The position numbers and the translations under genes are program-made. DNA of 64,000 nucleotides from Cumulibacter soli (GTDB lineage Bacteria > Actinomycetota > Actinomycetes > Mycobacteriales > Antricoccaceae), in contig NZ_SMSG01000010.1 in NCBI RefSeq assembly GCF_004382795.1, positions 1 through 64,000 of the forward strand, read 5' to 3'. Below the pieces are notes generated by a model. It was not told the origin of the DNA, did no database searches, and worked only from the letters and a program-made list of their open reading frames with translations. Of the stretch, positions 523 through 32,571 are shown piece by piece. Position 1 is the first letter of the stretch. The number at the start of each line of letters is the position of its first letter.

Positions 523-560
523 TGATTAGATGTCTGTTAAATTAGAGGCATGTCTAATCA
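523..560 (+). promoter_or_regulatory. arsR promoter with two overlapping ArsR-type operators
   Basis: A -10 like TTAAAT at 537-542 ends seven bases before the ATG at 550, so the mRNA is probably leaderless. Around it lies ATTAGA (541-546), six bases, TCTAAT (553-558), a perfect inverted repeat that covers the start codon. A second ATTAGA (525-530) with TTAAAT six bases on is a weaker copy over the -10. The outer arms TGATTAGA (523-530) and TCTAATCA (553-560) are also exact complements. The layout fits autorepression by ArsR; that is inference. Confidence 0.6.
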
Positions 561-903
561 CGATTTGGGGATGTCGGACGAGGAGTGCTGTTCGTCGCTG
601 ACGGCTGGAGTTCTCGAGCGCTCGAGCGCGGAGGACTTGGCGATCAAGTTCAAGGCGCTGGGTGATCCGGTGCGGATTCAGTTGTTCGCGATGATTGCCA
701 GCGCCGAGGATGAGGTGTGCGTGTGCGACCTGACCTGCGCGTTCGAATTGACGGCGCCGACGATCAGTCACCATCTCAAGACGCTGCGCCTTGCCGGGCT
801 GGTCAGTAGCGAGCGTCGGGGCACGTGGGTGCATTATCGGGTCGTGCCCGAGGTCGTGGCCTCACTTTCCTCGTTACTTGATCTGGAAGCGGTGCCGGCA
901 TGA
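550..903 (+). CDS. arsR: ArsR-family arsenite-responsive repressor
   Basis: A 117-residue winged-helix repressor that should release DNA when it binds As(III) or Sb(III). The ArsR core runs from about residue 30 (KALGDPVR) through the recognition helix TAPTISHHLKTL to the wing ERRGTWVHYR. Metal ligands are visible: a vicinal pair Cys13-Cys14 near the N-terminus and Cys57/Cys59 in the CVCDL motif. This matches the corynebacterial ArsR arrangement (vicinal pair plus one Cys in the helix), not the E. coli one alone. Cys63 is an extra thiol. Its stop overlaps the start of acr3 as ATGA, so the two are translationally coupled. Operators cover its own start. Confidence 0.93.
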   Translation: MSNHDLGMSDEECCSSLTAGVLERSSAEDLAIKFKALGDPVRIQLFAMIASAEDEVCVCDLTCAFELTAPTISHHLKTLRLAGLVSSERRGTWVHYRVVPEVVASLSSLLDLEAVPA

Positions 904-1991
904 CGACCACATCGCGGGAGCACAGCGTCGCCGGCCAAATGTCGTTTTTGGATCGCTATCTCGCCGTGTGGATTGCAGGTGCGATGGCGGTTGGGATCTT
1001 GCTGGGTAACTTCGTCCCAGCGGTGACCGATGCGCTGAACGCGGTGCAGCTCGATGGGGTTTCGCTGCCGATCGCGCTCGGGCTGTTGGTGATGATGTAT
1101 CCCCCACTCGCCAAGGTGCGTTATGACCGGTTCGGTGCGGTTGCCCGCGATCGGCGGCTCATGGTGCTGTCGTTGGTGCTCAATTGGGTGCTTGGGCCTG
1201 CGGTGATGTTCGCTCTGGCGTGGTTGATGCTTCCGGATCTGCCGGAGTACCGCACTGGGCTGATCATCGTCGGTCTCGCGCGATGTATCGCGATGGTCAT
1301 CATTTGGAACGATCTGGCCCGCGGTAACCGCGAGTCCGCGGCGTTCCTGGTTGCACTCAACTCGATCTTTCAGGTCGTGATGTTCGCCGTCCTGGGTTGG
1401 TTCTACTTGCAGGTTCTCCCGGGTTGGCTTGGGCTGTCGCAGGACGCGCTGGATATCTCGATGTGGCAGATCGCCAAGTCGGTGTTGATATTCCTCGGCA
1501 TCCCGTTGCTGGCCGGGTTCTTGTCGCGGGTCCTGCTCGAACGGCGGCGCGGGCGTGAGTGGTACGAGCGCTCGTTCCTGCCGAAGATCTCCCCGTTCGC
1601 GCTGTATGGGTTGCTGTTCACCATCATCGTGCTGTTCGCGCTGCAGGGCGGGCAGATCACCGAGCACCCCTTCGATGTCGCTCGGATTGCCGTGCCGCTG
1701 GTGGCGTATTTCGCCGTCATGTGGTTTGGGTCGTTCTTCAGCGCGAAAGCGCTGGGCTTGGACTACCAGAACTCCACGACTGTCGCGTTCACAGCTGCCG
1801 GTAACAACTTTGAGCTGGCGATCGCTGTCGCGATCGGCACGTTCGGTGCCGTTAGTGGTGAGGCTCTCGCCGGCGTCGTCGGGCCCCTTATCGAGGTCCC
1901 CGTGCTCGTCGGGCTTGTGTACGTGAGCTTGCGACTGCGTAAGTCGTTCTCACCACGATCCGCCCAGTCAGAGTCTGTGAGGGAACCATGA
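900..1991 (+). CDS. acr3: Acr3-type arsenite efflux permease
   Basis: A 363-residue membrane carrier with about ten helices of the BASS/Acr3 fold, which exports arsenite driven by the proton gradient. The Acr3 signature GLARCIAMVIIWNDLARG holds Cys129, and the TAAGNNFELAIA motif holds Glu305; both residues are known to be needed in characterised Acr3 proteins and fall at the same numbers here. It is not the unrelated ArsB family. It follows arsR with an ATGA overlap, and its stop overlaps the start of the arsC fusion. Expression is therefore expected to follow arsenite through ArsR. Confidence 0.95.
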   Translation: MTTTSREHSVAGQMSFLDRYLAVWIAGAMAVGILLGNFVPAVTDALNAVQLDGVSLPIALGLLVMMYPPLAKVRYDRFGAVARDRRLMVLSLVLNWVLGPAVMFALAWLMLPDLPEYRTGLIIVGLARCIAMVIIWNDLARGNRESAAFLVALNSIFQVVMFAVLGWFYLQVLPGWLGLSQDALDISMWQIAKSVLIFLGIPLLAGFLSRVLLERRRGREWYERSFLPKISPFALYGLLFTIIVLFALQGGQITEHPFDVARIAVPLVAYFAVMWFGSFFSAKALGLDYQNSTTVAFTAAGNNFELAIAVAIGTFGAVSGEALAGVVGPLIEVPVLVGLVYVSLRLRKSFSPRSAQSESVREP

Positions 1992-3052
1992 CAAGCTCGC
2001 GGCACACGCCGATCGTGCTCTTCTTGTGTGTCAGTAACGCCGGGAAGTCGCAGATGGCCGAGGCGATCGCCCGCCAGATCGCCGGCCGGGCGATCGATGC
2101 CCGCTCGGCCGGCACTAGCCCGAAAACAACCGTGAACGAGCTCTCGGCGCGTGTGGTCGCCGAATCCGGCGCGGATATGGCGACCGCACACCCGAAGGCG
2201 ATTGACGCCGATCTGCTTCGCGCAGCGGACCGCGTCGTGCTGCTCGGGACTGAGGTCGAACTCGCGCCGGTGGACGGTATGCGCGGCCAGCTCGAACGCT
2301 GGCCCATCGTCGAGCCGTCACACGAGGGCATCGACGGGATCGATCGGATGCGACTGATCCGCGACGACATCAATGATCGTGTCGTCTCGCTCGTCATGGA
2401 CGTGACCGGCCAACCTCCTGAGCAGGCACGGCGCTATCAGCAGATCGTTGCCGACTTGGTCGATCGGTTCGAGGGGGTATTCACCGAGGTCGAGGTTCGC
2501 GCGGCCGTCCGTCAAGCGCACGCGGCCCTCGCGATCACCAGCCGTATCCCCGCGTACCTGCCGGTTCTGGTGGAGCGGTTCGCAACAGATCTCCTCGGCG
2601 CGAAAGCTGTCGCCAGCGGTCGCCGTCCGACCCCGTTGCCTCGACTGCTGTTTGTGTGTGTGCACAACGCTGGTCGGTCGCAGATCGCCGCGGCCCTCGC
2701 CAAGCACCTCTCGGGTGCCCGCGTTAACGTGCAGTCCGCCGGTTCGCGGCCGATCGGCTCGGTCAACCCCGTCGCGCTGGAAGTGCTCGCCGAACGCGGA
2801 ATCCCCGCACCCGATGCGTTCCCCAAGCCGCTGACCGACGACGTACTGCACGCAGCCGACGTGGTGGTGACGATGGGCTGCGGCGATGAATGCCCGTATG
2901 TACCAGGCAAACGGTACGAGGACTGGCCCGTCGCTGATCCCGACGGCGCGGATCTGGAGACCGTGCGCCGGATCACCGACGACATCCAGATCCGAGTCAC
3001 GCAACTGCTGGCTGAAGTCCTCGACCACCCCACCATCCGGAGTAACTCGTGA
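1988..3052 (+). CDS. arsC: Three-part arsenate reductase: LMW-phosphatase-like domain, helical linker, ArsC
   Basis: A 354-residue fusion. Residues 1-140 form a low-molecular-weight phosphatase fold with the loop CVSNAGKS (Cys14), where the usual arginine of CX5R is Lys20. Residues 145-208 form a helical segment like the three-helix domain seen in front of some actinobacterial ArsC. Residues 215-354 form a canonical LMW-PTP arsenate reductase with CVHNAGRS (Cys224, Arg230) and the MGCGDEC pair Cys298/Cys302. The C-terminal domain should reduce arsenate, probably with mycothiol. The first domain may be catalytically altered or bind the oxyanion only. It overlaps both neighbours (ATGA with acr3, GTGA with the next arsC). 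Confidence 0.9.
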   Translation: MTSSRHTPIVLFLCVSNAGKSQMAEAIARQIAGRAIDARSAGTSPKTTVNELSARVVAESGADMATAHPKAIDADLLRAADRVVLLGTEVELAPVDGMRGQLERWPIVEPSHEGIDGIDRMRLIRDDINDRVVSLVMDVTGQPPEQARRYQQIVADLVDRFEGVFTEVEVRAAVRQAHAALAITSRIPAYLPVLVERFATDLLGAKAVASGRRPTPLPRLLFVCVHNAGRSQIAAALAKHLSGARVNVQSAGSRPIGSVNPVALEVLAERGIPAPDAFPKPLTDDVLHAADVVVTMGCGDECPYVPGKRYEDWPVADPDGADLETVRRITDDIQIRVTQLLAEVLDHPTIRSNS

Positions 3053-3447
3053 GCATTCCAGAAGTACTGTTCGTGTGCGTACACAATGCCGGTCGATCAC
3101 AGATGGCCGCAGGATTCCTACAGCACCTGGCCGGTGACCGGGTACGGGTCCGCTCGGCAGGCTCAGCCCCCGCCAATACGATCAACCCCACCGCTGAAGA
3201 AGCGATGGCCGAGGTCGGCATTGACATCTCACGCGAAGTGCCCACCAAGCTGAGCACTCCCGGAGTCCAGGCCGCCGATGTCGTCATCACCATGGGCTGC
3301 GGCGACGCATGTCCGATCTTTCCCGGCAAGCGTTACCTCGATTGGGACCTTGACGATCCGGCAGGTCAAGATATCGAGGCCGTCAGGGCCATCCGCGACG
3401 AGATCAAGACTCGCGTCGAGCAACTCCTGCACGAGCTGACCGCGTAA
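3049..3447 (+). CDS. arsC: Arsenate reductase, LMW-phosphatase type
   Basis: A 132-residue single-domain ArsC that converts arsenate to arsenite for export by Acr3. The P-loop CVHNAGRS (Cys10, Arg16) is at the N-terminus, the RSAGS turn at about 36-40, and the MGCGDAC motif gives Cys84 and Cys88. The sequence FPGKRYLDWDLDDP matches mycothiol-linked actinobacterial ArsC. The start is GTG overlapping the stop of the fusion gene (GTGA), so it is the last gene of the operon. Having two catalytic ArsC units in one operon resembles the ArsC1/ArsC2 pairs of corynebacteria. Confidence 0.93.
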   Translation: MSIPEVLFVCVHNAGRSQMAAGFLQHLAGDRVRVRSAGSAPANTINPTAEEAMAEVGIDISREVPTKLSTPGVQAADVVITMGCGDACPIFPGKRYLDWDLDDPAGQDIEAVRAIRDEIKTRVEQLLHELTA

Positions 3448-6859: not shown

Positions 6860-6894
6860 TTGCATCCTTATTCGATGTGTGTCAAATTATAGGG
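6860..6894 (+). promoter_or_regulatory. arsR2 promoter with a second operator copy
   Basis: TTGCAT (6860-6865), sixteen bases, then TCAAAT (6882-6887) make a plausible -35/-10 pair, which puts the transcript start at or next to the GTG at 6895. ATTCGA (6870-6875) and TCAAAT (6882-6887) with six bases between form an imperfect copy of the ars operator over the -10. Confidence 0.5.
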
Positions 6895-7263
6895 GTGACG
6901 GTCATTCAAGAAGCCTCGACGGCAGCCTGCTGCGCGCCGCTGACGTGCGAACCACTCGGCACCGACGACGCGGCAGAGCTGGCGCCCCTGTTTAAAGCGC
7001 TGGGCGATCCGGTGCGGTTACGCCTCGTGTCGTTAATCGCGTGCCACCCCGACGGCGAAGTGTGTGTCTGCGACCTGACTGGCGCATTTGAGCAGTCGCC
7101 GGCGACCATCTCGCACCACCTCAAAGTGCTGCGCGAGGCCGGACTCATCGAGTCCGAGAGACGCGGCACGTGGATCTACTACCGGGCAAGCCCCGCGGCG
7201 CTTGCCCGGGTCTCCGCGCTCATGGGGTCTGGCCACGCCGATCGAGCGCACCGGCTCCGATGA
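6895..7263 (+). CDS. arsR: Second ArsR-family arsenite-responsive repressor
   Basis: About 122 residues with the ArsR winged helix: KALGDPVRLRL, the recognition helix SPATISHHLKVL and the wing ERRGTWIYYR. Thiol ligands are Cys12-Cys13 (vicinal), Cys18, and Cys57/Cys59 in CVCDL, close to the first ArsR of the island but clearly not identical to it. I chose GTG 6895 because the -10 lies just upstream; an in-frame GTG at 6877 would sit inside the promoter. It is divergent from arsO and probably controls arsO, the MFS gene and itself. The last 44 bases overlap the 3' end of the opposite-strand gene at 7220. Confidence 0.9.
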   Translation: MTVIQEASTAACCAPLTCEPLGTDDAAELAPLFKALGDPVRLRLVSLIACHPDGEVCVCDLTGAFEQSPATISHHLKVLREAGLIESERRGTWIYYRASPAALARVSALMGSGHADRAHRLR

Positions 7264-8107
7264 GGTCGCCCGATCGGAAACTTACCGCCACGCCCTCGGC
7301 GAGGTCACGATCTGGCGCATGGGCGAGCGCGGCCGCGATGCGCGCGACAATGCTGACGTCGAGCGGATTGCCCTCGGGGTCGATGTCGCCGTGTACCGAC
7401 CACGCGACGGTATCCTCGGCAGCGTCGAAGACGTCTGGCGGTACGGCGCTCCAACTGAGAGACGATGTCCCCGAGGCAATCGGTCCGCGCGGCAGCCTCG
7501 GGCGGTCGTTACCCGCGGCGAGGGCGAATTCTGGTTGATAATGCTGATATGCCTCGGATGTCGACGAGACTCCGAACTCATCGGCGAGCTCACGGCATTG
7601 CGCTAACAAACGCGCGACCCGATCATCGCCGCCGGCCACCTCGTCAAGTCGGCGCTGTTGGGCGATGACTGAGCCGAGCAACGTGACCAGCTCGGCGTCG
7701 AATTCGGCGGTATCGAAGAAGCGTTCGCATGCTGCCGTCCGTACGACAAGTTCGGCATCCAATACGGCCGTATCCAGGCGCTCGATCGCGTCCCGCGCGC
7801 TGGCGGGCCACCAGCGCCGCATCCAATGGCCGAGGGCGAGGTCGCGAAGCGGTGCAATGACGCTCGAGTCCCACTCGACCTCGATGGGCGAGGGTGGGTG
7901 TGCAAGCAGCCGGGCGTAGTCGTCGGCGCCGACTGCTTGCCATAACCAGTCGGCGGAATCGAATTGCAGCAAGGCCACGCGCGCCGAGTCCGGTTCATCG
8001 ACGGTCCACTCGATCAGCCCGCCGTCGACCTCTATTACCATTGTCAGCGCTGCGGCGACTGAATCGGTGGCATTGGTCCAGATCCCATTGCTCAGGTGCA
8101 GTCTCAT
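7220..8107 (-). CDS. Unrecognised protein, third gene of the CHAT operon
   Basis: A 295-residue acidic protein that I do not recognise. It has no signal peptide or membrane helix. Tryptophans cluster in the first half (GLIEW, SADWLWQAVG, GHWMRRWWP), and residues 100-170 look helical. The end is a loose, polar tail. Its start overlaps the stop of the preceding gene as ATGA, so it is coupled to the two upstream genes. Its 3' end overlaps arsR2 on the other strand by 44 bases, which suggests that the ars island and this operon were joined by a recombination event. Confidence 0.75.
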   Translation of the reverse strand: MRLHLSNGIWTNATDSVAAALTMVIEVDGGLIEWTVDEPDSARVALLQFDSADWLWQAVGADDYARLLAHPPSPIEVEWDSSVIAPLRDLALGHWMRRWWPASARDAIERLDTAVLDAELVVRTAACERFFDTAEFDAELVTLLGSVIAQQRRLDEVAGGDDRVARLLAQCRELADEFGVSSTSEAYQHYQPEFALAAGNDRPRLPRGPIASGTSSLSWSAVPPDVFDAAEDTVAWSVHGDIDPEGNPLDVSIVARIAAALAHAPDRDLAEGVAVSFRSGDLIGAGALDRRGQTP

Positions 8108-9396
8108 CTCCCCGCTCCCAGCATCAACTTGATCTGCTGCCGGTGATCAAGACTCACCGACCGCGCGATTCCGTCAAGCAGGGTTCGCACCTGCCCGACA
8201 TCTGCGTGCGGCTCCTGCCGGACGTCTCGACCGTGCAAGCGCGCCCACAGACGGGCGGTATACGGCGTTGCGAACTCCTTCAGTTCGCCGACAACGCTAG
8301 CCTGTCGGGGATGTAGCGGCTCGTCATCGGCGAGATACCTCCGCGCATGCATCACGTACGCCTCCTTCCGAAGCCGCGCTTGGATACGGCGCGGCAGGTC
8401 GGCTGCAGGCTCGGCATCGTCGGTCAACGGCGCGAGTTGTACGGCGATCTCGATACCCGCAACCAAGACCGCCTGTGCGCTGGCGTCGCACAGACCCCAT
8501 GGCGCGCACGCGCGTTCGGCCTCCTGAATGCACAGCGTCGACACGTCGGGGAGCTCAGTACGATCGCGCGAACGCCGCAATGTTGACCTCACCCGCTCAA
8601 GGATGCTCTTGTCGAGTGGTCTGCGGCGCGCTGCGTCGTCCGCGGAGATGGGCGGCGGCTGTTGCGGCAACGCGCATAGCGCGAGATCGCGGCCGGGCCA
8701 TGGGGCGGCGCCGCGCAGCGTTAGCCCCAGTGCGCTCGGCGCGCGGTCGGTTGCCAGAGTCCTCCAGGCCTGCTGCTGGCGAGTGCGCGCACGGTGATCG
8801 TGGGCGTCGGCGAACACCAGTTGCAGCCGGAGCAGGAACCCGTCGGTGTCGCACGACTCCGCCGTGGTGGGCCAGTCGCGATTCACTCGGGCGCGCAGTG
8901 CGCCAAGCGCATCGGGATCCTTGCTCAGAAACTCCAGCGCGGTGACCGCGTCCTCGTTGTGGGCACCGTGTATCTCGCTCAGTTCGTTGTGCGCGACCTG
9001 CCTGGAGTTGGCGCTCGGCGCGGCGTACTCGATCGCCAACGCGTAACTCAGCGGAAAGTACAGTTCCTGCGCGTTTCCGTCCGTGATCCGCATAGCCCGA
9101 CGCTGTGACTTGAGCACGCTGAACCAGGCTGCCGCGGCCCTCAGTCGATCGCCCTGTGCGGCGATCTGCTCACCGAGCCGTGCGGCAACATCGGCCTCGA
9201 GCACGGGCTGACTGAATTCTGGGTGTGCTCGAACGCGAAGTACGAGCGGATCGATGATTCGCTTTATCGTGCGGGTTAACGGCGTCCCATCGCTGCCACT
9301 GAACACATCCAGCCCCGCGCCAATGCCCTGCCATGCGGCCGTGATCGCCATCCGCCGTGGCACGCCGGACGCGCCCTCACCTCGTCGTCCTCTCAT
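8104..9396 (-). CDS. Unrecognised helical protein, second gene of the CHAT operon
   Basis: A 430-residue protein with no family I can name. It begins at ATG 9396, which overlaps the CHAT stop (ATGA); upstream codons in this frame are a shadow of the CHAT gene. The N-terminal 40 residues are glycine rich (WQGIGAGLDVFSGSDG), the rest is rich in Ala, Arg and Leu and looks like bundled helices. ATG at 9351 is an alternative start. Because it sits directly behind a protease gene with coupled translation, it may be a partner, regulator or substrate of that protease; this is inference. Confidence 0.75.
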   Translation of the reverse strand: MRGRRGEGASGVPRRMAITAAWQGIGAGLDVFSGSDGTPLTRTIKRIIDPLVLRVRAHPEFSQPVLEADVAARLGEQIAAQGDRLRAAAAWFSVLKSQRRAMRITDGNAQELYFPLSYALAIEYAAPSANSRQVAHNELSEIHGAHNEDAVTALEFLSKDPDALGALRARVNRDWPTTAESCDTDGFLLRLQLVFADAHDHRARTRQQQAWRTLATDRAPSALGLTLRGAAPWPGRDLALCALPQQPPPISADDAARRRPLDKSILERVRSTLRRSRDRTELPDVSTLCIQEAERACAPWGLCDASAQAVLVAGIEIAVQLAPLTDDAEPAADLPRRIQARLRKEAYVMHARRYLADDEPLHPRQASVVGELKEFATPYTARLWARLHGRDVRQEPHADVGQVRTLLDGIARSVSLDHRQQIKLMLGAGR

Positions 9397-12300
9397 GTGG
9401 CGTCCTGGTCGTTCTGTATCGGACCAACCTCGAAGTTCGCGAGGGCAGCCCAATAGATGGGGTTCAGCGCGGGCTCCCCGTTCCGCCATGCGCGCATCTG
9501 CTGGCGCTGCCAACGATTCAGTCTGCGGCGTGGGTCGGCCGTACGTTGTGCCGTGTCGACCGCGATGACCAGTTCGGCCATCGGGTCCAGTTCCCCGTTT
9601 CCACCAGCTGCGGCGAAACCCGCTGTTGTCGGCATCGACCACAGCGTCGCGGTCACCAACTCGGCGCCACCGATGACGAACGCCGCGACCAGACCTGCCG
9701 ACTCGTCGTACCGCACATCACTGCCCGATGCGCACGCGACCAGCGCAACCTTGGGTGGAATGGGTGCTTGTAATTCCAGTAGGTCGCGCACCTGCATCGG
9801 ACGATGACCGTCGACTGCGTCGGCGTATCCTTCCTCGTCGTTGCTACAGGCGAGGTGAATGGCAGCATCCTCTGCACCCGATTGCCCGTCAAGAGCGGTG
9901 GAGCCGCTCGCATGTCCCACGTACATCAGCCGCGTCGGTTTGCGCGCCAATTCGCTTGCCAGCCAGGTCCGGTTGACATCTCTGCGCCGGAAGAGTTCAA
10001 CCGCGGTGTCGACGAACGGTCGGACGTCGTACTTCGTAAGTACCTCAGCGAAGTAGCGACTCGCGGCGCTCATGTCACGCGGCCGACCCAGCACCGAACC
10101 CAACGGGCCATCGGCGCGATGCCCAGGAACCCGTGGATCGAGGATGAGCAGCGGGCGGTCCGGCCCGGACAGCTTGCTGCGTACGCCGGTCCTGCGAGCG
10201 GTGACATTGGCGGGTACCGCCCACCCGATATCGACTAGTTCCATCAATCTGAATCCGTCGGTCAAGGTCGTAATATCACCGTCCGGCCACGCGATCTGCG
10301 CTGGCCGCACTCCGGTGGCGGTACTTGCGTCAGTGCGGGCGCGTATCAAATCGTCGAAGTCGGGTACCACCGTCGGCATCGCCAATTGTCCCCACGGCAC
10401 GGCGCCTAGTCGAGCGGACGGAACCACGAATAGGTCTGGTCGCGGGTCGTCGGTGAGTTCGTACAGGCGACGCCACGCGTCGGGCGGGATCAGCAACGCG
10501 CCTAATCTGTATGCGAACGTTAATTCTGCCCGCGGATCCTTCAGCGCCGTGAAGGCCCGGGTCGCCGCCTCACCGAGCGCTTCCCCGCCTCGTGGCTCGG
10601 GCAGTACGGCATCCAGTTCTTCCAGCGCTGCGAGCAATAGCGGTTCATCAAGCGCCCAGGTGATAGTCAAGTCGGGGTCGTCGACAACGCGCAGGCTGCC
10701 GTAAGTAGCGACTCCCACATCGGCATATCGCAGCATCAGCGTCTTTCGCGGGATCCCGTCGTCCACGCCACGCACCCACGTCGCCCAGGGATTCTCTTCA
10801 GAAATTATGTTGCGTCCGTATCGGGTTGTTACGGCTGACCGATGCTGCGCCAGAATCGGCCCACGGCCTGGATCCATCACGAGGTCCGGGGCCGGACCGA
10901 GCAACCGCAATGACGTGGTCGAAACAGGTGGTTGATCGTCGCTGGGGAGCGCGACCTGCGGATAATGCGTCGGTTCGGGCTGCTGCGCCGCCGACGGGTC
11001 GGTATCGAACGCTCCACGGACGCTGTGGTACTCGATGAGTTCGGCCAGCAACGCCGAATCGCCGCCCTCGTAGGCGATCGCGAATGCGCCGGCAAGCATC
11101 GGTGCCGATACCTGCATCGCCCACTGGGCTCGCTCCTTCGGATCGATCATGGCGTAACGCTCGGCATCCACAGCGATCGCGGCGGGAATCATGAGTTCCG
11201 CGGCGGTGGCCAGTTTCCTTGTGGCGCGGCGATACTCCGGAGTTCCCGGTGCGCAAGCAACGACCCCGACGGGGCGGTCACTACTGGGGGCATCAGGATC
11301 CAGGCCGGTCTCAAATCCCATATCGGAGAGGGCATCAGCGCGCCACACCGCACCACGTTGCGTGTCCAGGCGGGCGTAATGAAGCCAGTTGCTCCGCGGC
11401 CACTCCTCAAGCACCTCGCGAGCGCGGGCGATTTGTTTGGTGGCGGCGTCGAACTCGCCGCGGAAGATCGGAATCCAGCTGCGCTGTAACAACATGCGAT
11501 ACAGTTGCAGTGGTTTATCGATCTCGCGCCAATGCAATTCGGCCTGGTCCCAGCATTGACCCGCCTCGTCCAATTGGCCCATGAGTAGGTGAGTCAGCCC
11601 GAACATGTACCAAGCGCTGGACACCTCATGCGCCCGATTGAACTCGGCGATCGTCGGGTAGGACGCGACGGTCAGTTGATGCGCCGCCCAGTAGTTGCCA
11701 GCGGATGAAACGGCCGCTGCGCGTTCGAGTTGCGCCTTCGCTACGTCGAAGCGCCACCCGAGCGCGCTCGCTCGTGCTGCAGCGCGCTGCAGCCATTCCT
11801 CGGCGTCCTGCAGGTTCCCGGTTGCCACGCAGTATCCGCCGTACCCGAGGCCGGCGGACACATATAGCCGGTCGAGGAAAACGTCCGAGGATCGCTCGTC
11901 GGCAAGTTCTTCCATTACGCGCTGCCACAGCGGCGCCGCCTGGGCATACCGATCGTCGTCACCGAGAGCGAGCGCGCAGCGAATGGTGGCGTTGCCCAGG
12001 AGGTAGCGTGACTCGCTCGTGCGCTCGCGCAGTCGCTCGCCCAGGTTCTCTAATTCTTGGATCGCCTGATCGTGGTTTCCTTGGGCAGCGGTCAATCCAG
12101 ATGCCAGGTATCTCCGCCATGCGTCGTACCGACTGATAGCGGATTCGGTGAAGTTGGCGCTGTCGGGGTGTTCACGAACCTGGATGAGAACGTCATCGAT
12201 TCGTCGCGTGACCTCACCGGCTTGCTCGTATGCACTTCGGTTCAGGAAGGCGTCGCCCAATTGCGTGAGGGCCTCGAGCATCCAATCGTCACGGTCAGCG

Positions 12301-12398
12301 CGTTCAATCTTGGGGATGAGACCGAGGAGGTGGCGGTGTGCGGCCTCTTCATCGCTGGCGAAAGCCAGTCGTCGTGCGTGCGCCAGGTCGCCGTGCAT
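9393..12398 (-). CDS. TPR-CHAT protease
   Basis: A 1001-residue protein. Residues 1-390 are helical repeats of the TPR kind (for example LQDAEEWLQRAAARASALG and LDEAGQCWDQAELHWREID). Residues 400-600 are a less regular middle. Residues 620-1000 are a CHAT peptidase, a caspase-like fold: the catalytic His829 lies in LMYVGHASG and Cys889 in VALVACASGSD, and the end has NPIYWAALANFEV as usual for CHAT. TPR-CHAT proteins act as activated proteases in conflict and signalling systems. A TAGGAT -10 at 12405-12410, six bases before the ATG, suggests a leaderless transcript. It is the first gene of a three-gene coupled operon. Confidence 0.9.
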   Translation of the reverse strand: MHGDLAHARRLAFASDEEAAHRHLLGLIPKIERADRDDWMLEALTQLGDAFLNRSAYEQAGEVTRRIDDVLIQVREHPDSANFTESAISRYDAWRRYLASGLTAAQGNHDQAIQELENLGERLRERTSESRYLLGNATIRCALALGDDDRYAQAAPLWQRVMEELADERSSDVFLDRLYVSAGLGYGGYCVATGNLQDAEEWLQRAAARASALGWRFDVAKAQLERAAAVSSAGNYWAAHQLTVASYPTIAEFNRAHEVSSAWYMFGLTHLLMGQLDEAGQCWDQAELHWREIDKPLQLYRMLLQRSWIPIFRGEFDAATKQIARAREVLEEWPRSNWLHYARLDTQRGAVWRADALSDMGFETGLDPDAPSSDRPVGVVACAPGTPEYRRATRKLATAAELMIPAAIAVDAERYAMIDPKERAQWAMQVSAPMLAGAFAIAYEGGDSALLAELIEYHSVRGAFDTDPSAAQQPEPTHYPQVALPSDDQPPVSTTSLRLLGPAPDLVMDPGRGPILAQHRSAVTTRYGRNIISEENPWATWVRGVDDGIPRKTLMLRYADVGVATYGSLRVVDDPDLTITWALDEPLLLAALEELDAVLPEPRGGEALGEAATRAFTALKDPRAELTFAYRLGALLIPPDAWRRLYELTDDPRPDLFVVPSARLGAVPWGQLAMPTVVPDFDDLIRARTDASTATGVRPAQIAWPDGDITTLTDGFRLMELVDIGWAVPANVTARRTGVRSKLSGPDRPLLILDPRVPGHRADGPLGSVLGRPRDMSAASRYFAEVLTKYDVRPFVDTAVELFRRRDVNRTWLASELARKPTRLMYVGHASGSTALDGQSGAEDAAIHLACSNDEEGYADAVDGHRPMQVRDLLELQAPIPPKVALVACASGSDVRYDESAGLVAAFVIGGAELVTATLWSMPTTAGFAAAGGNGELDPMAELVIAVDTAQRTADPRRRLNRWQRQQMRAWRNGEPALNPIYWAALANFEVGPIQNDQDAT

Positions 12399-12505: not shown

Positions 12506-13102
12506 TTAGGAGCAGGTCACCGTGATCTCGAAGTCTTTCGAGATCATTCCGGCGGTCGGATCATTCAAATCCGCTCCCTCGGCCGTTCCGGTGATCGTGT
12601 ACTCGTCACCGTCAACCGTTGCCTCGGCAGACCCGATCTTCGCGCCGGCTTGTTCGGCGACGGCGAGCGCGACGTCGTCAACGACGATGCTGAACGCCTC
12701 GACCTTCGGCGGATCCTCGTCGGAGAGGATGACCGCCAGACCCTGTTGCGCGCTCGCCGAACCACTGGCGATGTTGACTTTGCCGCCCTGCTTGAGGCAC
12801 GTAACGGAGTCCAGATCGATGCTCTCCAGGTCTTGCCCGTCCACCTTCACAACCGTCGTTCCGCCGGTGGACACGTCGCCCGACCCAGCGCCGTCGCCCG
12901 AGTTAGCATCGTCGCCAGACTCGTCGCCGTCGGCCGCGCTCGCGTCGTCGGTGCCATCGTCGGCGCTGGCGTCAGATCCGGAGTCGCTGGTGGTCTCGTT
13001 GTTCTTCGAGTCGTCGCCGCTCCCGGAATCATCTGAGCAGGCCGCGACGCCAGCCAGCGCGAAAATGGCGATGCCCGTGGCCATGACCTTCTTGATCTTC
13101 AT
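12506..13102 (-). CDS. LpqH-like 19-kDa-antigen family lipoprotein
   Basis: A 198-residue lipoprotein. The signal peptide ends in the lipobox LAGVAAC with Cys22. Residues 24-85 are a low-complexity Asp/Ser/Gly linker. The C-terminal domain (about 90-198) follows the mycobacterial LpqH pattern: a conserved Cys in VTCLKQGGKVNIA, then VILSDEDPPKVEAF, DEYTITGTAEGADL, and a final FEITVTC. It should be anchored outside the membrane. ATG 13102 is chosen because it starts the signal peptide and AAAGGG lies upstream; an earlier in-frame ATG adds only basic residues. It is transcribed alone. The 255 bases upstream hold its promoter and no other gene. Confidence 0.88.
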   Translation of the reverse strand: MKIKKVMATGIAIFALAGVAACSDDSGSGDDSKNNETTSDSGSDASADDGTDDASAADGDESGDDANSGDGAGSGDVSTGGTTVVKVDGQDLESIDLDSVTCLKQGGKVNIASGSASAQQGLAVILSDEDPPKVEAFSIVVDDVALAVAEQAGAKIGSAEATVDGDEYTITGTAEGADLNDPTAGMISKDFEITVTCS

Positions 13103-13357
13103 GAGTGTGGTGCCCTTTCGGTAATGCCGAACCTGTGTCGTTCGGCGTTGACTCGATCTCACCGCGCGCTGGCGGCTACCGATCCCAACTTTCGTCGTAC
13201 CCCGTCGGTCGAGTGAGCGAATTTCTACCGACCCGCGGGGCCGCCGCGCTGGAGACCAGGAATCTTGACGCGATGACGACGCATACGGTTCCTGTGAATC
13301 TTCACAGTGAGTTAGGGCGAATGGCCGATGGCGAGTGCGGGCAGCAGAATGTAGGTC

Positions 13358-22851: not shown

Positions 22852-22964
22852 GCGGGTAGCCGACCCCATCCGTAGGCGGCGAGCAGCAGCCTCAGCCGCC
22901 GGAGATCAGCACACCCGAAAACGGGCGGCTTCGTGCTGCCCGCGCGCATATGAAGGAGGACCTC

Positions 22965-24053
22965 ATGACCAAGAACGAGACCGTGCGTTCGGCGCTCTCA
23001 CTGGCGGTGAGGGCGAACCTCCCTGTCCTGCTGTGGGGTGCGCCAGGCACCGGCAAGACCTCCGCCGTCGTGGCGCTTGCTGAGCAGCTGGGCATGCCGA
23101 TCGAGGTGGTGGTCGGCTCGATCCGCGAACCGAGCGACTTCTCCGGTCTTCCCGTCATCCGCGATGACGGGACCTGGTTCGCGCCGCCACGATGGGCGGA
23201 ACGGCTGTCCGTTTCAGGATCCGGGTTGCTGTTTCTGGACGAACTGACCACGGCACCGCCCGCGGTGCAGGCCGCGATGCTCCGCGTCGTCCTGGAACGC
23301 GCTGTGGGCGATCTTGTGCTCCCGGAGGGCGTGCGTATCGTCGCCGCAGCGAACCCGCCCGGAATCGCCGCGGACGGCTGGGAGCTGTCTGCGCCGCTGG
23401 CGAACCGGCTCGTCCATCTGGACTGGCAGATCGAGGCCGCCGCGGTCGCTGAGGGATTCGCTCACGGGTTCGCCGTCGCCGATGCCGCCTCTGTCGCCGC
23501 GCCGACGTCCGGGCAGATCGCGACAGCGAAGGCGCAGCTCGGTGCATTCCTTCGTATCCGGCCGGAGCTGGTGCTTGCCGTGCCGGATTCGCCGGAGCGG
23601 GCGGGACGGAGCTGGCCAAGCCCTCGGAGCTGGGAGATGGCGGCGCGCGGCCTGGCCGCCGGGGTTGCGAACGCCAGCGACGAGGCGACGATCGCCGCGC
23701 TGGTGATCGGTGCGGTCGGAGAGGCGGCGGGTTTCGAGGCGCTGTCCTGGCTGCGCACGCTCGACCTGCCGGACCCTGAGTCGGTGCTGAACGACCCCCA
23801 CGCGCCACTGCCGGACCGGCCCGACCACCTGCACGCGCTGCTCGGCGCGGTCGTCGCCCACGTTCACGCGGATGCGAGCGAGTCGGCATGGGAGCGCGCA
23901 TGGGACGTGATTGCTCGGGTTGCCAAGACCACGCCGGACGTGGCCGCGACCTCCGCCAGGGCGCTTGCAGGCCAGCGACCGGCCGGGGTGAACCTGCCCA
24001 CGGCCATGCTCGAGCTCGCCCCGATCCTCCGCACAGCAGGACTCATGCCATGA
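22965..24053 (+). CDS. MoxR-type AAA+ ATPase
   Basis: A 362-residue ATPase. Walker A is GAPGTGKT (residues 25-32), Walker B is LLFLDEL, and the sensor strand IVAAANPPGIAADGWELSA and SAPLANRLVHLDW (arginine finger) follow. MoxR proteins remodel partner proteins together with a VWA protein. AAGGAGG lies five bases before ATG 22965, which is a strong ribosome binding site and decides the start. The stop overlaps the VWA gene start (ATGA), the usual genetic pairing. Confidence 0.88.
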   Translation: MTKNETVRSALSLAVRANLPVLLWGAPGTGKTSAVVALAEQLGMPIEVVVGSIREPSDFSGLPVIRDDGTWFAPPRWAERLSVSGSGLLFLDELTTAPPAVQAAMLRVVLERAVGDLVLPEGVRIVAAANPPGIAADGWELSAPLANRLVHLDWQIEAAAVAEGFAHGFAVADAASVAAPTSGQIATAKAQLGAFLRIRPELVLAVPDSPERAGRSWPSPRSWEMAARGLAAGVANASDEATIAALVIGAVGEAAGFEALSWLRTLDLPDPESVLNDPHAPLPDRPDHLHALLGAVVAHVHADASESAWERAWDVIARVAKTTPDVAATSARALAGQRPAGVNLPTAMLELAPILRTAGLMP

Positions 24054-28313: not shown

Positions 28314-31145
28314 TCACGAAGATCCTGAATGAGGTTGCTCCGCGGTGCGAACCGCAGCCCGAGCGCCGGGATCACCGCTGCTGCCTGAGAGCACTTGCCA
28401 CAGGTCCCTCAGGTCAGAACCAGCGAGGTCTGACCCGCGCGGAACGTGCCGACCCCAAACAGCGTCAGACAGTTGCGAGAGGAACTCACGCGCCTCTGAC
28501 GGACGAAGGGACCCTGGTTCGTGGCCCTGTGCGAACTCCGCCCCGAGCGAGTTAGCTGCCGTTCTTGGAACTGAACTCATCCGCATCACCACGCCTGCCT
28601 CGGTGTTGACCCCGTGATAGAGCATCGCACCGAGCAAGTTGATGCTTCGCAGGTCGCTCTCGCTGACGTTCTCAAAATCGATACCGCTCGTGGGCAACTT
28701 GGACAGGGCTGTAATCCCCCACGTACCAGCCGTCGCAAGGTTTCGGTAGATGGCCTTCGTCGCCTCCGTAAGCGCGGCAGTCGGGCTTGCCGCATCGCCG
28801 AAGTATCGCTCGGCGATCGATTTGATGGAGACGCCGGCAACCCAGTCGGCAGCGATCTTCGCTGCCCTTTCGCCGATCCCAGCACCGACGCCACTCAGCT
28901 CATCGATGCTGTCTCTGATCTGCGGAAGTTGAAGCATGACCCGCATGAGGTCAGGGAGAGCACTCGACGTGACATCGCCAAACAGGCTGCCCGGTTGCCA
29001 ATCACTCGCATCGAGGGACTTGTCCATCCGACGCATCTCGCCCATCGCAGAACGGATGCCTTCCGGAGTGAATCCCGTGCTATCGGCGAGCGTCGTCGTT
29101 TCAACGTTCTGTGCAAGCTCAGCAGCATAAGCCCGCGTCGCCTCCAGAAGCCTCAGACCCTTCTGCCGTTCAGCGGGACTCGCCTCGGCTAGGGACGAGT
29201 ATCCGAATGTGTTGCGTAGCAGCAGCTCTGTTTCAGACAGAACAGCGTCAAGGTTCTTCTTTTGAGCGAATAGATGTGCGACGTAACTACGGAAGTCCGC
29301 CCATTGATCGTTGTAGAGCGATCGTTCTAGGTTGAGCAGTCGGCCAGCATCTTCAAGTTCATCCAAGAGAACGACAAGCCTAGAAAGAAGCGCCCCTGCT
29401 TGTTCCGACAAGAACTGCGCTAGCGACTCTCGATCGCCTTCTTTGCTGGAAATCCCGACGACGCCGATGCTGTCGTGATCCACACGGCCTGCTCTGCCCG
29501 CGAGATTCCAGAACTCGCGGGCAGTCATAGGACGGTTGAACTTGCCGCTGGGCAGATTCCGACTTGCGAGGAAGATGGACGAGACCGGGAAGTTCAGACC
29601 CTGAGAAAGCCCCGTCGTAGCGACCAGAATCCGCAGTTTTCCCTGCTCGGCGAGCCATTCCATCAGTGCGCGCGTCTCGTCGGACAGTCCTGCATGATGC
29701 ACCCCAATCCGGCGAGCAAGCATGCCAATGAGTGCGTAGTCCTCGCTGATTTCTGCTGCCAGATAGCGCTGCACCAGGGCGATGTCGGGATCATCCACTT
29801 CCGGAAGCTCTCCTGACAACTCCTCGGCAATGGTCCAAACGGTCGGGATAGTGGAGCAGATCACGATCGCGGTTCCCCGCTCAGACAGCGTTAGCGCCGA
29901 TGCGCCAGCGATCTTGCTAAGACTGTTCTTGATACTAGAAAACGTCCGATCAAGTTGGGGCGCTTCCCCAATCTGGTAAAGGCCGGAGACATTCATTGAT
30001 GAGCCGCTTGTCAGCATTGGCTCGAAAGACAGTCGCCAGTCTCTTCCCCGCCCAGAGAGCGGAGCTACTGCTGATACAAGGCCGATCAACCGATCGTTGG
30101 GTTGCCAAGGGGTTGTTGCAAGACTGATGCTCTTTCCAGTTCTCGGAGCCAGCCATCGGGCGAGGTCGTCTCCGTTCGGCACATAAGGCATGAGCAACAA
30201 GAAGTTCGCCTGGGTGCAGTCTCGTTTGACAGCGGCCAACAATAGTTCGATGCGGATGCCGCGATCGGAATCTTCAATGTTGTGTGCCTCATCGAGCACC
30301 AACAACGCGAGCGGGCGATCAATCGCCGCATTGCGGATTGCCAGGTGGAGCTTCTCTGGAGTTGCCACCAGCACGTCAAATGGAGACTCATTGAGCATTC
30401 CGGCTTCGATCTCATCTATCTCCACAGCGGAAGTGAGTTCCTCGACCCGAATGCCGCTGGGTCCGAGGTCTCGCCTCAGCCGTCGAGTGATCTGCGAGAC
30501 GAGCGCCCTTGTCGGGGCCACATATGCGACCCAGCCCTTGTCCTGCTTGAACTGGCTAATAGCTTGAACGATCTTGAACTCGGCGAGGATGGTCTTGCCC
30601 GCGCTCGTAGGAAGATCGACAACTACCGCGGCGCTTGCCGGGTCCAAGAGTCCCTGTTCCTGAATTGCTATGCGTTGCGGGGGCAGCATCTCGAACATCG
30701 AGCGTTGTCGGGTCGCAATTTCGACGATGCTCCGAATCTCGGGACCGATTCGCGTGACAGACCACAGTGCACCCGCCACCATGCGCTGAGCCATCGCGCG
30801 CTGCCACTGGAGAACCACTACGAATGCTGGATCGGCAGACTGCTGTGCCGCGGAAATCGCTCGGTCGAAGTGGAAGTCAAGTTGTGTAGCGACATCGGCT
30901 GGCTCCCCCTGCATCAGGTATGTAGCAACCATCTCCGAAAGCCTGGCCCAGTGGTACAAGGCCACCAGACGCCACCCGGCGACCTGCAGGTCTTCGGGCC
31001 GTGATTGCGCATTGAAGAGAAGCTCCTCATTCTCTCGCTGCTCTGCCCGCAGCCGCGCCACGGTTTCTGCAACGCCTTCAAGATCGTGCCATCCGTCTTT
31101 GCGAAGTAGCCGAGTCCAAACCTGCCCGAGGTCACTTGAGAACAC
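28314..31145 (-). CDS. Ski2/Brr2-like superfamily 2 helicase
   Basis: A 943-residue helicase. An N-terminal helical part (1-150) precedes the motor: LPTSAGKT (178-185), APTRALV (210-216), ATPEKL (261-266), DEAH (285-288), then HHAGL (484-488), LVATTGLSQGLNFP and NLAGRAGR (547-554). The last 380 residues are helical and unlike known Ski2 ends. The motif set is that of Ski2-like enzymes, which include several phage-defence helicases (for example HamB of Hachiman). Its start overlaps the end of the small gene upstream by 14 bases. Base composition is visibly less GC-rich than the neighbours, which fits recent transfer. Confidence 0.85.
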   Translation of the reverse strand: MFSSDLGQVWTRLLRKDGWHDLEGVAETVARLRAEQRENEELLFNAQSRPEDLQVAGWRLVALYHWARLSEMVATYLMQGEPADVATQLDFHFDRAISAAQQSADPAFVVVLQWQRAMAQRMVAGALWSVTRIGPEIRSIVEIATRQRSMFEMLPPQRIAIQEQGLLDPASAAVVVDLPTSAGKTILAEFKIVQAISQFKQDKGWVAYVAPTRALVSQITRRLRRDLGPSGIRVEELTSAVEIDEIEAGMLNESPFDVLVATPEKLHLAIRNAAIDRPLALLVLDEAHNIEDSDRGIRIELLLAAVKRDCTQANFLLLMPYVPNGDDLARWLAPRTGKSISLATTPWQPNDRLIGLVSAVAPLSGRGRDWRLSFEPMLTSGSSMNVSGLYQIGEAPQLDRTFSSIKNSLSKIAGASALTLSERGTAIVICSTIPTVWTIAEELSGELPEVDDPDIALVQRYLAAEISEDYALIGMLARRIGVHHAGLSDETRALMEWLAEQGKLRILVATTGLSQGLNFPVSSIFLASRNLPSGKFNRPMTAREFWNLAGRAGRVDHDSIGVVGISSKEGDRESLAQFLSEQAGALLSRLVVLLDELEDAGRLLNLERSLYNDQWADFRSYVAHLFAQKKNLDAVLSETELLLRNTFGYSSLAEASPAERQKGLRLLEATRAYAAELAQNVETTTLADSTGFTPEGIRSAMGEMRRMDKSLDASDWQPGSLFGDVTSSALPDLMRVMLQLPQIRDSIDELSGVGAGIGERAAKIAADWVAGVSIKSIAERYFGDAASPTAALTEATKAIYRNLATAGTWGITALSKLPTSGIDFENVSESDLRSINLLGAMLYHGVNTEAGVVMRMSSVPRTAANSLGAEFAQGHEPGSLRPSEAREFLSQLSDAVWGRHVPRGSDLAGSDLRDLWQVLSGSSGDPGARAAVRTAEQPHSGSS

Positions 31146-31620
31146 GTGTGTCCCATGAGTCGTCAGATTGGAAGAGTTCCGGGGTGACTTCGCGCTCGCG
31201 CATCCAGGCTCGGTACTCCGCCCAGCGGTCTGAACAGTATGCGAGCGCGCCGAGCTGGAGGACTTGATGTACCAGCGCTTCCAACGAGTCGAGCTTCATT
31301 GGAAGCGCCCGAAGTAGAGCGAACGCCTCGTGGGCCGCGGCCTCCGCCACCGCGGCTTCTGCTGCACCCGAGTGCAGCGACACCTGGGCGAGGGCCTCGA
31401 TGCCTTCGCTCGCGACAATCTCGTAGGCGAAAGCGACGTCTTGGATGAGAGTCTCGGTCGCAGCGTCGTGAGAGCCCTCGCGGTGAAGCTGGCGACCAAG
31501 GTTCGAGTCGACATACATGGAGGCAGCCGCGTCGTGGGCCGCCTTCACTCGGTCGGCGCCGAGGGCTTCGATTGCCCAGTGTGACCTGAGACGACTGATT
31601 GCTTCGCGGGAGATAGTCAT
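31132..31620 (-). CDS. Unrecognised small protein coupled to the helicase
   Basis: A 162-residue helical, acidic protein with an Ala/Glu-rich middle and a tryptophan-containing tail (DRWAEYRAWMRERE). It is not the DUF1837 protein (HamA) that accompanies HamB, and is too short for it. It overlaps the helicase start, so both are co-translated. The first codon lies only some 50 bases from the truncated integrase on the other strand, so a longer or additional upstream gene may have been lost. Function unknown; partner or effector of the helicase is the natural guess. Confidence 0.7.
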   Translation of the reverse strand: MTISREAISRLRSHWAIEALGADRVKAAHDAAASMYVDSNLGRQLHREGSHDAATETLIQDVAFAYEIVASEGIEALAQVSLHSGAAEAAVAEAAAHEAFALLRALPMKLDSLEALVHQVLQLGALAYCSDRWAEYRAWMREREVTPELFQSDDSWDTRVLK

Positions 31621-32494: not shown

Positions 32495-32497
32495 ACG

Positions 32498-32571
32498 TCG
32501 GGCTGACAGGATTTGAACCTGCGACCCCCTGACCCCCAGTCAGGTGCGCTACCAAGCTGCGCCACAGCCCG
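32498..32571 (-). tRNA. tRNA-Pro (anticodon GGG)
   Basis: A 74-base cloverleaf on the - strand. The acceptor arm CGGGCTG pairs exactly with CAGCCCG, the D arm GCGC with GCGC, the anticodon arm CCTGA with TCAGG around CTGGGGG, and the T arm is GCAGG-TTCAAAT-CCTGT. The anticodon is GGG (32535-32537 on the + strand). First base C and discriminator A are usual for bacterial tRNA-Pro. CCA is not encoded. Its 3' end points to the integrase remnant, the common integration geometry. Confidence 0.95.

Follow-up and report, generated by a model that had tools for sequence, protein, structure and literature searches.

We analyzed a 64,000-nucleotide stretch of DNA from Cumulibacter soli (contig NZ_SMSG01000010.1, positions 1–64,000; hereafter the window) that contains three coupled genes, here termed A, B and C, of which A encodes a fused TPR–CHAT protein (Table 1). 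A preliminary description of this DNA had given A 1001 residues and a His829/Cys889 dyad, and the open reading frame (ORF), the dyad positions and a Pfam CHAT match (PF12770; E 1.8e-9, 37.9 bits against a cut-off of 24) all agreed with it, with the TPR match lying below the Pfam cut-off (TPR_12 at 1.1e-4). The ATGA coupling to proteins of 430 and 295 residues was confirmed at both the A–B and the B–C junction, each of which is a 4-base overlap. The start of B at 9396 was favored because Arg14, which precedes the next ATG, is kept in 64 of 64 sequences; an alternative GTG start at 9363 would retain Arg14 too.

Table 1 Features of the module and its immediate surroundings in the window
Feature	Position	Strand	Remark
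A, fused TPR–CHAT protein, 1001 residues	9393..12398	-	TPR part ~residues 1–541, CHAT ~546–991
His829 codon, CHAT dyad of A	9912..9914	-	H in 63/63 sequences, window included
Cys889 codon, CHAT dyad of A	9732..9734	-	C in 63/63 sequences, window included
B, 430 residues from ATG	8104..9396	-	Mostly helical by prediction (low confidence), no known family
C, 295 residues	7220..8107	-	Helical N part with conserved Trp, low-confidence linker, Ig-like C part
QPEFALAAG linker motif, C residues 191–199	7511..7537	-	Resembles end of host ssrA tag
LpqH-type lipoprotein (Myco_19_kDa, PF05481)	12506..13099	-	Directly upstream of A
ArsR-type regulator	6877..7263	+	3' end overlaps C by 44 bases; outside module

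The two partners could not be assigned to a family, as the preliminary description had also found. For the window B and C, none of Pfam, NCBIfam and PADLOC gave a match at E up to 1, and neither Pfam searches with members of B, C and the membrane protein D described below nor searches of PDB sequences with B and C profiles gave a convincing match. Three candidate resemblances were treated as chance: C to Big_6 (1 of 21 members, at 0.0012), C to OspA (PDB chains, best 0.034), and B to PDB or Pfam entries, where nothing was better than 0.036. Foldseek searches with the models of B and C, which are weak (mean predicted local distance difference test score, pLDDT, 56 and 70, respectively), returned no match with E under 0.001. 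A plain metabolic identity of B and C was rejected for want of any family match.

Recurrence and anatomy in relatives

Separate searches for B and for A (A matches at E ≤ 1e-10) in 298 genomes of the window's order detected A in 47 and B in 48, and all 47 A-containing genomes were among the 48. In every one of these 47, A and B lay on one contig within ~7 kb of each other; the sole genome with B alone, G218, holds just a B fragment in a remnant locus (L084). Of the four genomes listed from the same genus (two) or the same family (two), none had either gene. B was also searched for in wider samples, and matches were found in 35 of 394 genomes of the class (two of these matches are weak and fragmentary, and contain a stop) and in 11 of 396 genomes of the phylum, all from the window's own order.

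We then compared 65 stretches, all chosen by B: 14 named genome contigs, 50 from other genomes, and the window. These loci are not fully independent, because in at least one case (L033 and L051) two of them seem to come from one contig (236,210 bases). Profiles detected A in 63, B in 65 (the selection criterion) and C in 62 of them; L035 and the 5-kb contig L110 lose module parts at contig ends, and part of C was still detected in L110 by tblastn. The module recurs across the Mycobacterium group (L031–L064: 14 members so named, two of them as Mycobacteriaceae, and 20 of genus g9, which is counted in the group and shares a contig with one of the 14), and A, B and C also occur together in Nocardia and Streptomyces records, including Nocardia farcinica 'plasmid 2' (2.66 Mb) and a plasmid of Streptomyces sp. 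NBC_01237. In 57 of 62 loci, a start codon in the C frame overlaps the stop of B by 4 bases, and in four more the overlap is 1 base. A, B and C are thus inherited as one unit in which B and C form an overlapping, coupled pair, and the preliminary description was right to regard the partners as fixed. They were found to be neither inconsistent nor plainly metabolic, the two outcomes that had been named as speaking against the grouping, and that test did not refute it.

Comparison of the architecture of A revealed that it is split in the Mycobacterium group into a TPR ORF and a CHAT ORF, adjoining or overlapping. The two parts are fused into one ORF in the window, the f14/g33 loci, L106, L108, L113, L114 and L186; this fusion and fission argues that the two halves work together. 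A second CHAT protein (37% identity) was encoded away from B in one module-bearing genome (G021 C10:37525–38310). The phylogenetic trees of B and CHAT are largely congruent, and in both the window groups next to the Mycobacterium group (support 0.99 and 0.97). Neither family f7 nor family f14 stays together in these trees, which shows that some horizontal transfer has occurred.

Most relatives contain a further gene, D, which in the Mycobacterium group lies between CHAT and B on the opposite strand; in other loci the genes often run D–B–C–A. D encodes a membrane protein in which one or two hydrophobic segments near the N terminus were recognized by eye; its similarity to DUF3592 is weak (7 of 17 members, best E 0.0014). 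D or a relative was present in 55 of 65 loci. In the f14/g33 loci (L065–L071), a weakly DUF3592-like gene pair that follows A, ~5.7–6.4 kb downstream of B, replaces the antisense D. D was not found in the window or its genome at E ≤ 1, an empty answer that alone shows nothing, and A and B are coupled directly there. The window C, at 295 residues compared with ~360 in relatives, ends ~70 residues early, with a sharp homology break that falls at the 44-base overlap with arsR. Without D and the final ~70 residues of C, the window copy may have been partly degraded or rewired; it retains an intact motif, dyad and B. The early end of C, the presence of D in most relatives, and the upstream LpqH-type lipoprotein all go beyond the preliminary description.

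Lipoprotein and other envelope partners

The LpqH-type 19-kDa lipoprotein family is known from tuberculosis research, and to our knowledge the physiological role of the branch concerned here is not settled. The window lipoprotein matched PF05481 at E 8.8e-30 (103.9 bits against a cut-off of 23); its ORF was listed from a GTG at 13162, the likely start is the ATG at 13099, and a lipobox (...GVAAC) was recognized by eye only in the translation (ALAGVAACSDD). A profile of this protein detected one copy per locus in 39 of the 65 loci: 33 of the 34 Mycobacterium-group loci, all five g21 loci, and the window. The sole Mycobacterium-group locus without a match, L031, begins inside the TPR gene. The gap between the lipoprotein and TPR genes, estimated from profile starts, was 62–110 nucleotides in all 34 same-strand pairs. 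The module lipoprotein was the single PF05481 match in the window's genome, and each of the five g21 genomes likewise had exactly one, at the module; nine g9 genomes had 3–7 matches each, one of them at the module. In a tree of 18 of the 39 module copies and 20 non-module rows (from 19 of 20 loci; some rows incomplete), the window and Mycobacterium-group module copies formed one clade (14 of 14, support 0.94), and four g21 copies fell outside it.

Some other loci carry a different protein. A PQQ-type protein, weakly BamB-like (Pfam PQQ_2 at 0.0086 only), occurred instead of the lipoprotein and next to D in seven f14/f15 loci, and downstream in three of four f34 loci; the fourth, L110, is the 5-kb contig. 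These lipoprotein, PQQ-type and membrane partners, together with the chromosomal neighbors common to many Mycobacterium-group loci, would fit a resident envelope-maintenance protease with the lipoprotein, D and PQQ-type proteins as its clients or chaperones and with no switch-like cut of C. We regard this as improbable, as A, B and C showed no match to membrane or secretion families and proteases of the CHAT clan are known to make regulated single cuts, not to carry out bulk turnover.

The linker motif of protein C and host ssrA tags

In the AlphaFold model of the full-length protein (C of L032, 14 sequences; mean pLDDT 70), a short beta and helical N part is followed by a segment of low confidence at 192–216 and then by a beta domain. 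Among the matches listed, VIA-align comparison showed a weak likeness of residues ~216–325 to several Ig-like beta domains (Z ~5) and loose matches for the helices at 92–194. The linker is probably disordered, judging from this model, in which pLDDT falls to ~30 at the stretch containing the motif described next.

The most conserved 5-mer of C is ALAAG at 204–208, within the linker; its mean entropy was 0.09 bit over 62 sequences, and the positions around it were mostly above 1.6 bits and up to 3.5 bits. ALAAG was present in 58 of the 62 sequences, preceded by an aromatic residue in 57 (Y 48, F 6, W 3; otherwise L 3, V 1, H 1), and the Gly after ALAA was retained in 61. Eight C copies outside the alignment, six of them from g9, all kept YALAAG. 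Among 674 other called ORFs (258,110 residues), the pattern [YFW]ALAAG did not occur.

This motif resembles the end of the ssrA tag. Scanning of 42 host genomes yielded 41 usable tags (G153 had none), 40 of which end in YALAA or FALAA. In many loci the likeness extends upstream: commonly RDDYALAA in C compared with QRDYALAA in the tag in the Mycobacterium group, QPEFALAA compared with QRDFALAA in the window, and QRAYALAA compared with QREFALAA in f14/g33, with a poorer fit in f34 (RAGLALAA compared with RTDFALAA). When the four residues before ALAA were ranked against the other 4-mers of the same C, a median of 0.3% of these were equally tag-like (range 0 to 25%). This likeness is to tags in general; a closer match to each genome's own tag is not established.

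From these observations we tentatively propose, at somewhat short of an even chance, that the locus is a signal-triggered proteolysis module of Actinomycetes in which a CHAT cut of C exposes an ssrA-like degron. The lipoprotein and D would sense something at the envelope, and the TPR part of A, with B, would receive the signal; the CHAT part would then cut C in the linker, at a predicted site between the last Ala and the Gly of [Y/F]ALAAG. ClpX reads a free end, and an internal ALAA is silent. Because the motif in C is internal, cleavage would be needed before any degron action. The new C-terminus (...QPEFALAA in the window) would resemble the end of the host ssrA tag, and for that reason ClpXP or ClpC1P1P2 is proposed to destroy the N-terminal half of C, which would release what that half holds (B or another target) and set the Ig-like half free. 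The fullest version of this proposal, a mimicry of trans-translation with a hidden cut site in C, a Clp fate for the product, and an outside trigger acting through a dedicated LpqH-family lipoprotein, is rather doubtful as a whole.

Several observations weigh against this proposal. On the envelope side, D or a relative was not found in 10 of the 65 loci, the window among them, and the lipoprotein was not found in 26; PF05481 proteins also occur without an A or B match in seven g9 genomes (G129, G147, G177, G194, G225, G272, G276), in two g41, two g60 and one g63 genomes, and weakly in a few others. The disorder call for the linker comes from one 14-sequence model. The motif is not invariant, reading ALVAG in two of the 62 sequences, ALAAR in one and TLAAG in one. 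It might also be a plain structural motif, because ALAAG occurs in 10 and [YFW]ALAA in 9 of the 674 other ORFs. The tag likeness is uneven: in L113, 25% of other 4-mers are as tag-like as the one upstream of the motif; the residue before ALAA is equal in C and the genome's own tag in just 24 of 41 genomes, with Y in C and F in the tag in eight; and that C residue is L in three f34 genomes, W in three, V in one and H in one. The permutation p of 0.004 for host matching ignores phylogeny. Finally, we know of no established CHAT preference for Ala at P1.

The same conservation could arise if ALAAG were a docking motif for B or the CHAT domain, or a helix cap formed on binding, the substrate being elsewhere or B itself. 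Binding motifs, too, typically take the form of a short invariant stretch in a variable linker, the residues of ALAAG are common ones that recur elsewhere as just noted, and none of the present tests identified the protease substrate. Set against this are the tag likeness beyond ALAA, with the aromatic residue before and Gly after, and the frequent Asp and Arg/Gln upstream, so that we consider docking possible, at clearly less than an even chance. If the proposed proteolytic switch is true, it would tie Clp degradation and the LpqH lipoprotein family to a caspase-like protease, would be an example of a protease borrowing the ssrA code, and would provide a mechanism for one branch of the 19-kDa antigen family. 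The analysis names one residue stretch in C whose cleavage is directly testable. None of the papers listed by our literature searches describes this locus, to judge from the listings, and none was found that joins the CHAT domain, or DUF3592, with mycobacteria; mentions by gene name only would be missed.

Genomic setting and comparison with known systems

Analysis of the neighbors in 55 regions revealed uvrA-like genes in 17, lysX-like genes in 16 and infC-like genes in 12, all in the Mycobacterium group (cluster names were assigned from translations by eye); the remaining Mycobacterium-group loci have different neighbors. The 115 flank proteins of 20 other loci were mostly metabolic and regulatory, among the 25 of 162 Pfam families shown. 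These proteins matched 44 PADLOC families, including AbiD (6.7e-36), type II methyltransferases (best 6e-80), mad1/mad2, Cas3c (2.9e-9) and regulator models, and each of the 25 families shown matched only one or two proteins. B was on six plasmid records and on no phage record. A DNA search with the two window flanks, covering 13 genomes (its own included), found the lipoprotein side in 6 and parts of the ars side in all 13, mostly over short pieces; since neither a whole shared island nor a clean empty site was seen in these genomes, we make no claim of an insertion.

These data bear on the possibility that the locus is an anti-phage or anti-plasmid abortive module like other CHAT systems, with A as executioner and B and C as sensor and effector. 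A CHAT protease is at work in type III-E CRISPR (PMC10028731). The patchy distribution, the transfer evident from conflicts between trees and families, the plasmid records and the PADLOC matches in some flanks would all fit such a role. On the other hand, the window A, B, C and lipoprotein matched no family in PADLOC-DB 2.0.0 at E up to 1, the flank matches are scattered over one or two proteins per family shown, and the uvrA, lysX and infC neighbors of many Mycobacterium-group loci and the phage records without B do not suggest it, so that we judge this role unlikely. With modest confidence, we conclude that the module is a resident regulatory unit that sometimes moves, not a typical defence-island gene. 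The preliminary description had proposed checking whether the triple recurs in defence islands and had suggested a 'mobile conflict module'. The recurrence across actinobacteria was borne out, but no consistent defence island was present in the flanks examined; the label as worded is not supported, given the uvrA, lysX and infC neighbors of many Mycobacterium-group loci, the mostly metabolic flanks and the lack of a phage record, although its element of mobility survives in the plasmids and trees.

The ars genes of the window adjoin C but stand outside the module. Two ArsR-type regulators, at 550–903 (+) and at 6877–7263 (+), flank this arsenic region, in which an SBF-family transporter gene (900–1991) is followed by a gene (1988–3052, +) for a 354-residue protein with a 'Phosphatase-like_N' three-helix domain and then an ArsC-type phosphatase domain. 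In the same-genus genome G002, DNA like window 1029–3425 and arsR-like DNA lie ~200 bases apart, and the intervening window segment 3531–6845 (−; cutinase, MFS, flavin oxidoreductase) may therefore be an interruption. An AT-richer stretch at 28314–31620 (−), where a gene for a 943-residue DEAD/ResIII helicase-like protein overlaps that for a 162-residue protein of no assigned family, lies close to tRNA-Pro (32497–32571) and is a possible separate island. At 22950–24053 (+), an AAA_5 ATPase gene with a weak match to bpMoxR (the MoxR of ternary systems) is followed by a 494-residue ORF.

Among known systems, the best-studied TPR–CHAT case is type III-E CRISPR (Craspase/CASP), in which the CHAT protease Csx29 cleaves the adjoining Csx30; full-length Csx30 and Csx30-C were observed but Csx30-N was not, and the authors suggest that exposed ends are degraded (PMC10028731). 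The likeness to the present locus lies in a CHAT part with a His/Cys dyad, in a TPR part, for which the matches here stay under the Pfam cut-off, and in a neighboring multi-domain protein as candidate substrate. The differences are that phmmer with A found nothing among PDB sequences at E up to 1, that no cas gene was found among the window genes scanned and neither Cas7-11 nor Csx30 among the direct neighbors scanned with Pfam, and that Csx30 chains were absent from the matches of the B and C profiles at E up to 10. No gasdermin was among the 50 Foldseek matches listed for B or C; no resemblance to the Csx30 or gasdermin partners given as examples in the preliminary description was found, by tests that are weak for folds.

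Like the module, CHAT/trypsin-gasdermin operons and MoxR-vWA-VMAP ternary conflict systems combine a CHAT-type effector protease with co-encoded partners of unknown fold. The present module differs from the latter in that no MoxR or vWA match occurred among the direct module neighbors scanned; the AAA_5/bpMoxR-like gene is 10 kb from the module. With regard to LpqH (PF05481), the window lipoprotein is a full family member, but the module copies sampled from the window and the Mycobacterium group cluster in a clade of their own, apart from the non-module copies sampled, and we make no claim that the canonical M. tuberculosis LpqH belongs to the module.

A parallel to the proposed cut of C is provided by latent degron switches such as RseA, RsiW and LexA, in which a first cut exposes an Ala-Ala end for ClpXP. 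Switches of the RseA/RsiW/LexA type are cut by DegS, RseP or RasP, or by self-cleavage. RsiW is named as a protease-cleaved anti-sigma factor in PMC10028731; according to reviews, cleaved RseA carries a VAA end and counts among the listed ClpX substrates (PMC8138137), and the M. tuberculosis anti-sigma factor RsdA has an ssrA-like VAA degron read by ClpXP1P2 (PMC8165232). The proposal for C shares with these switches a first cut that would expose an Ala-Ala end for ClpXP. It differs in that a caspase-like CHAT protease would make the cut, and in that the motif of C resembles the host ssrA tag over at least five residues in many loci.

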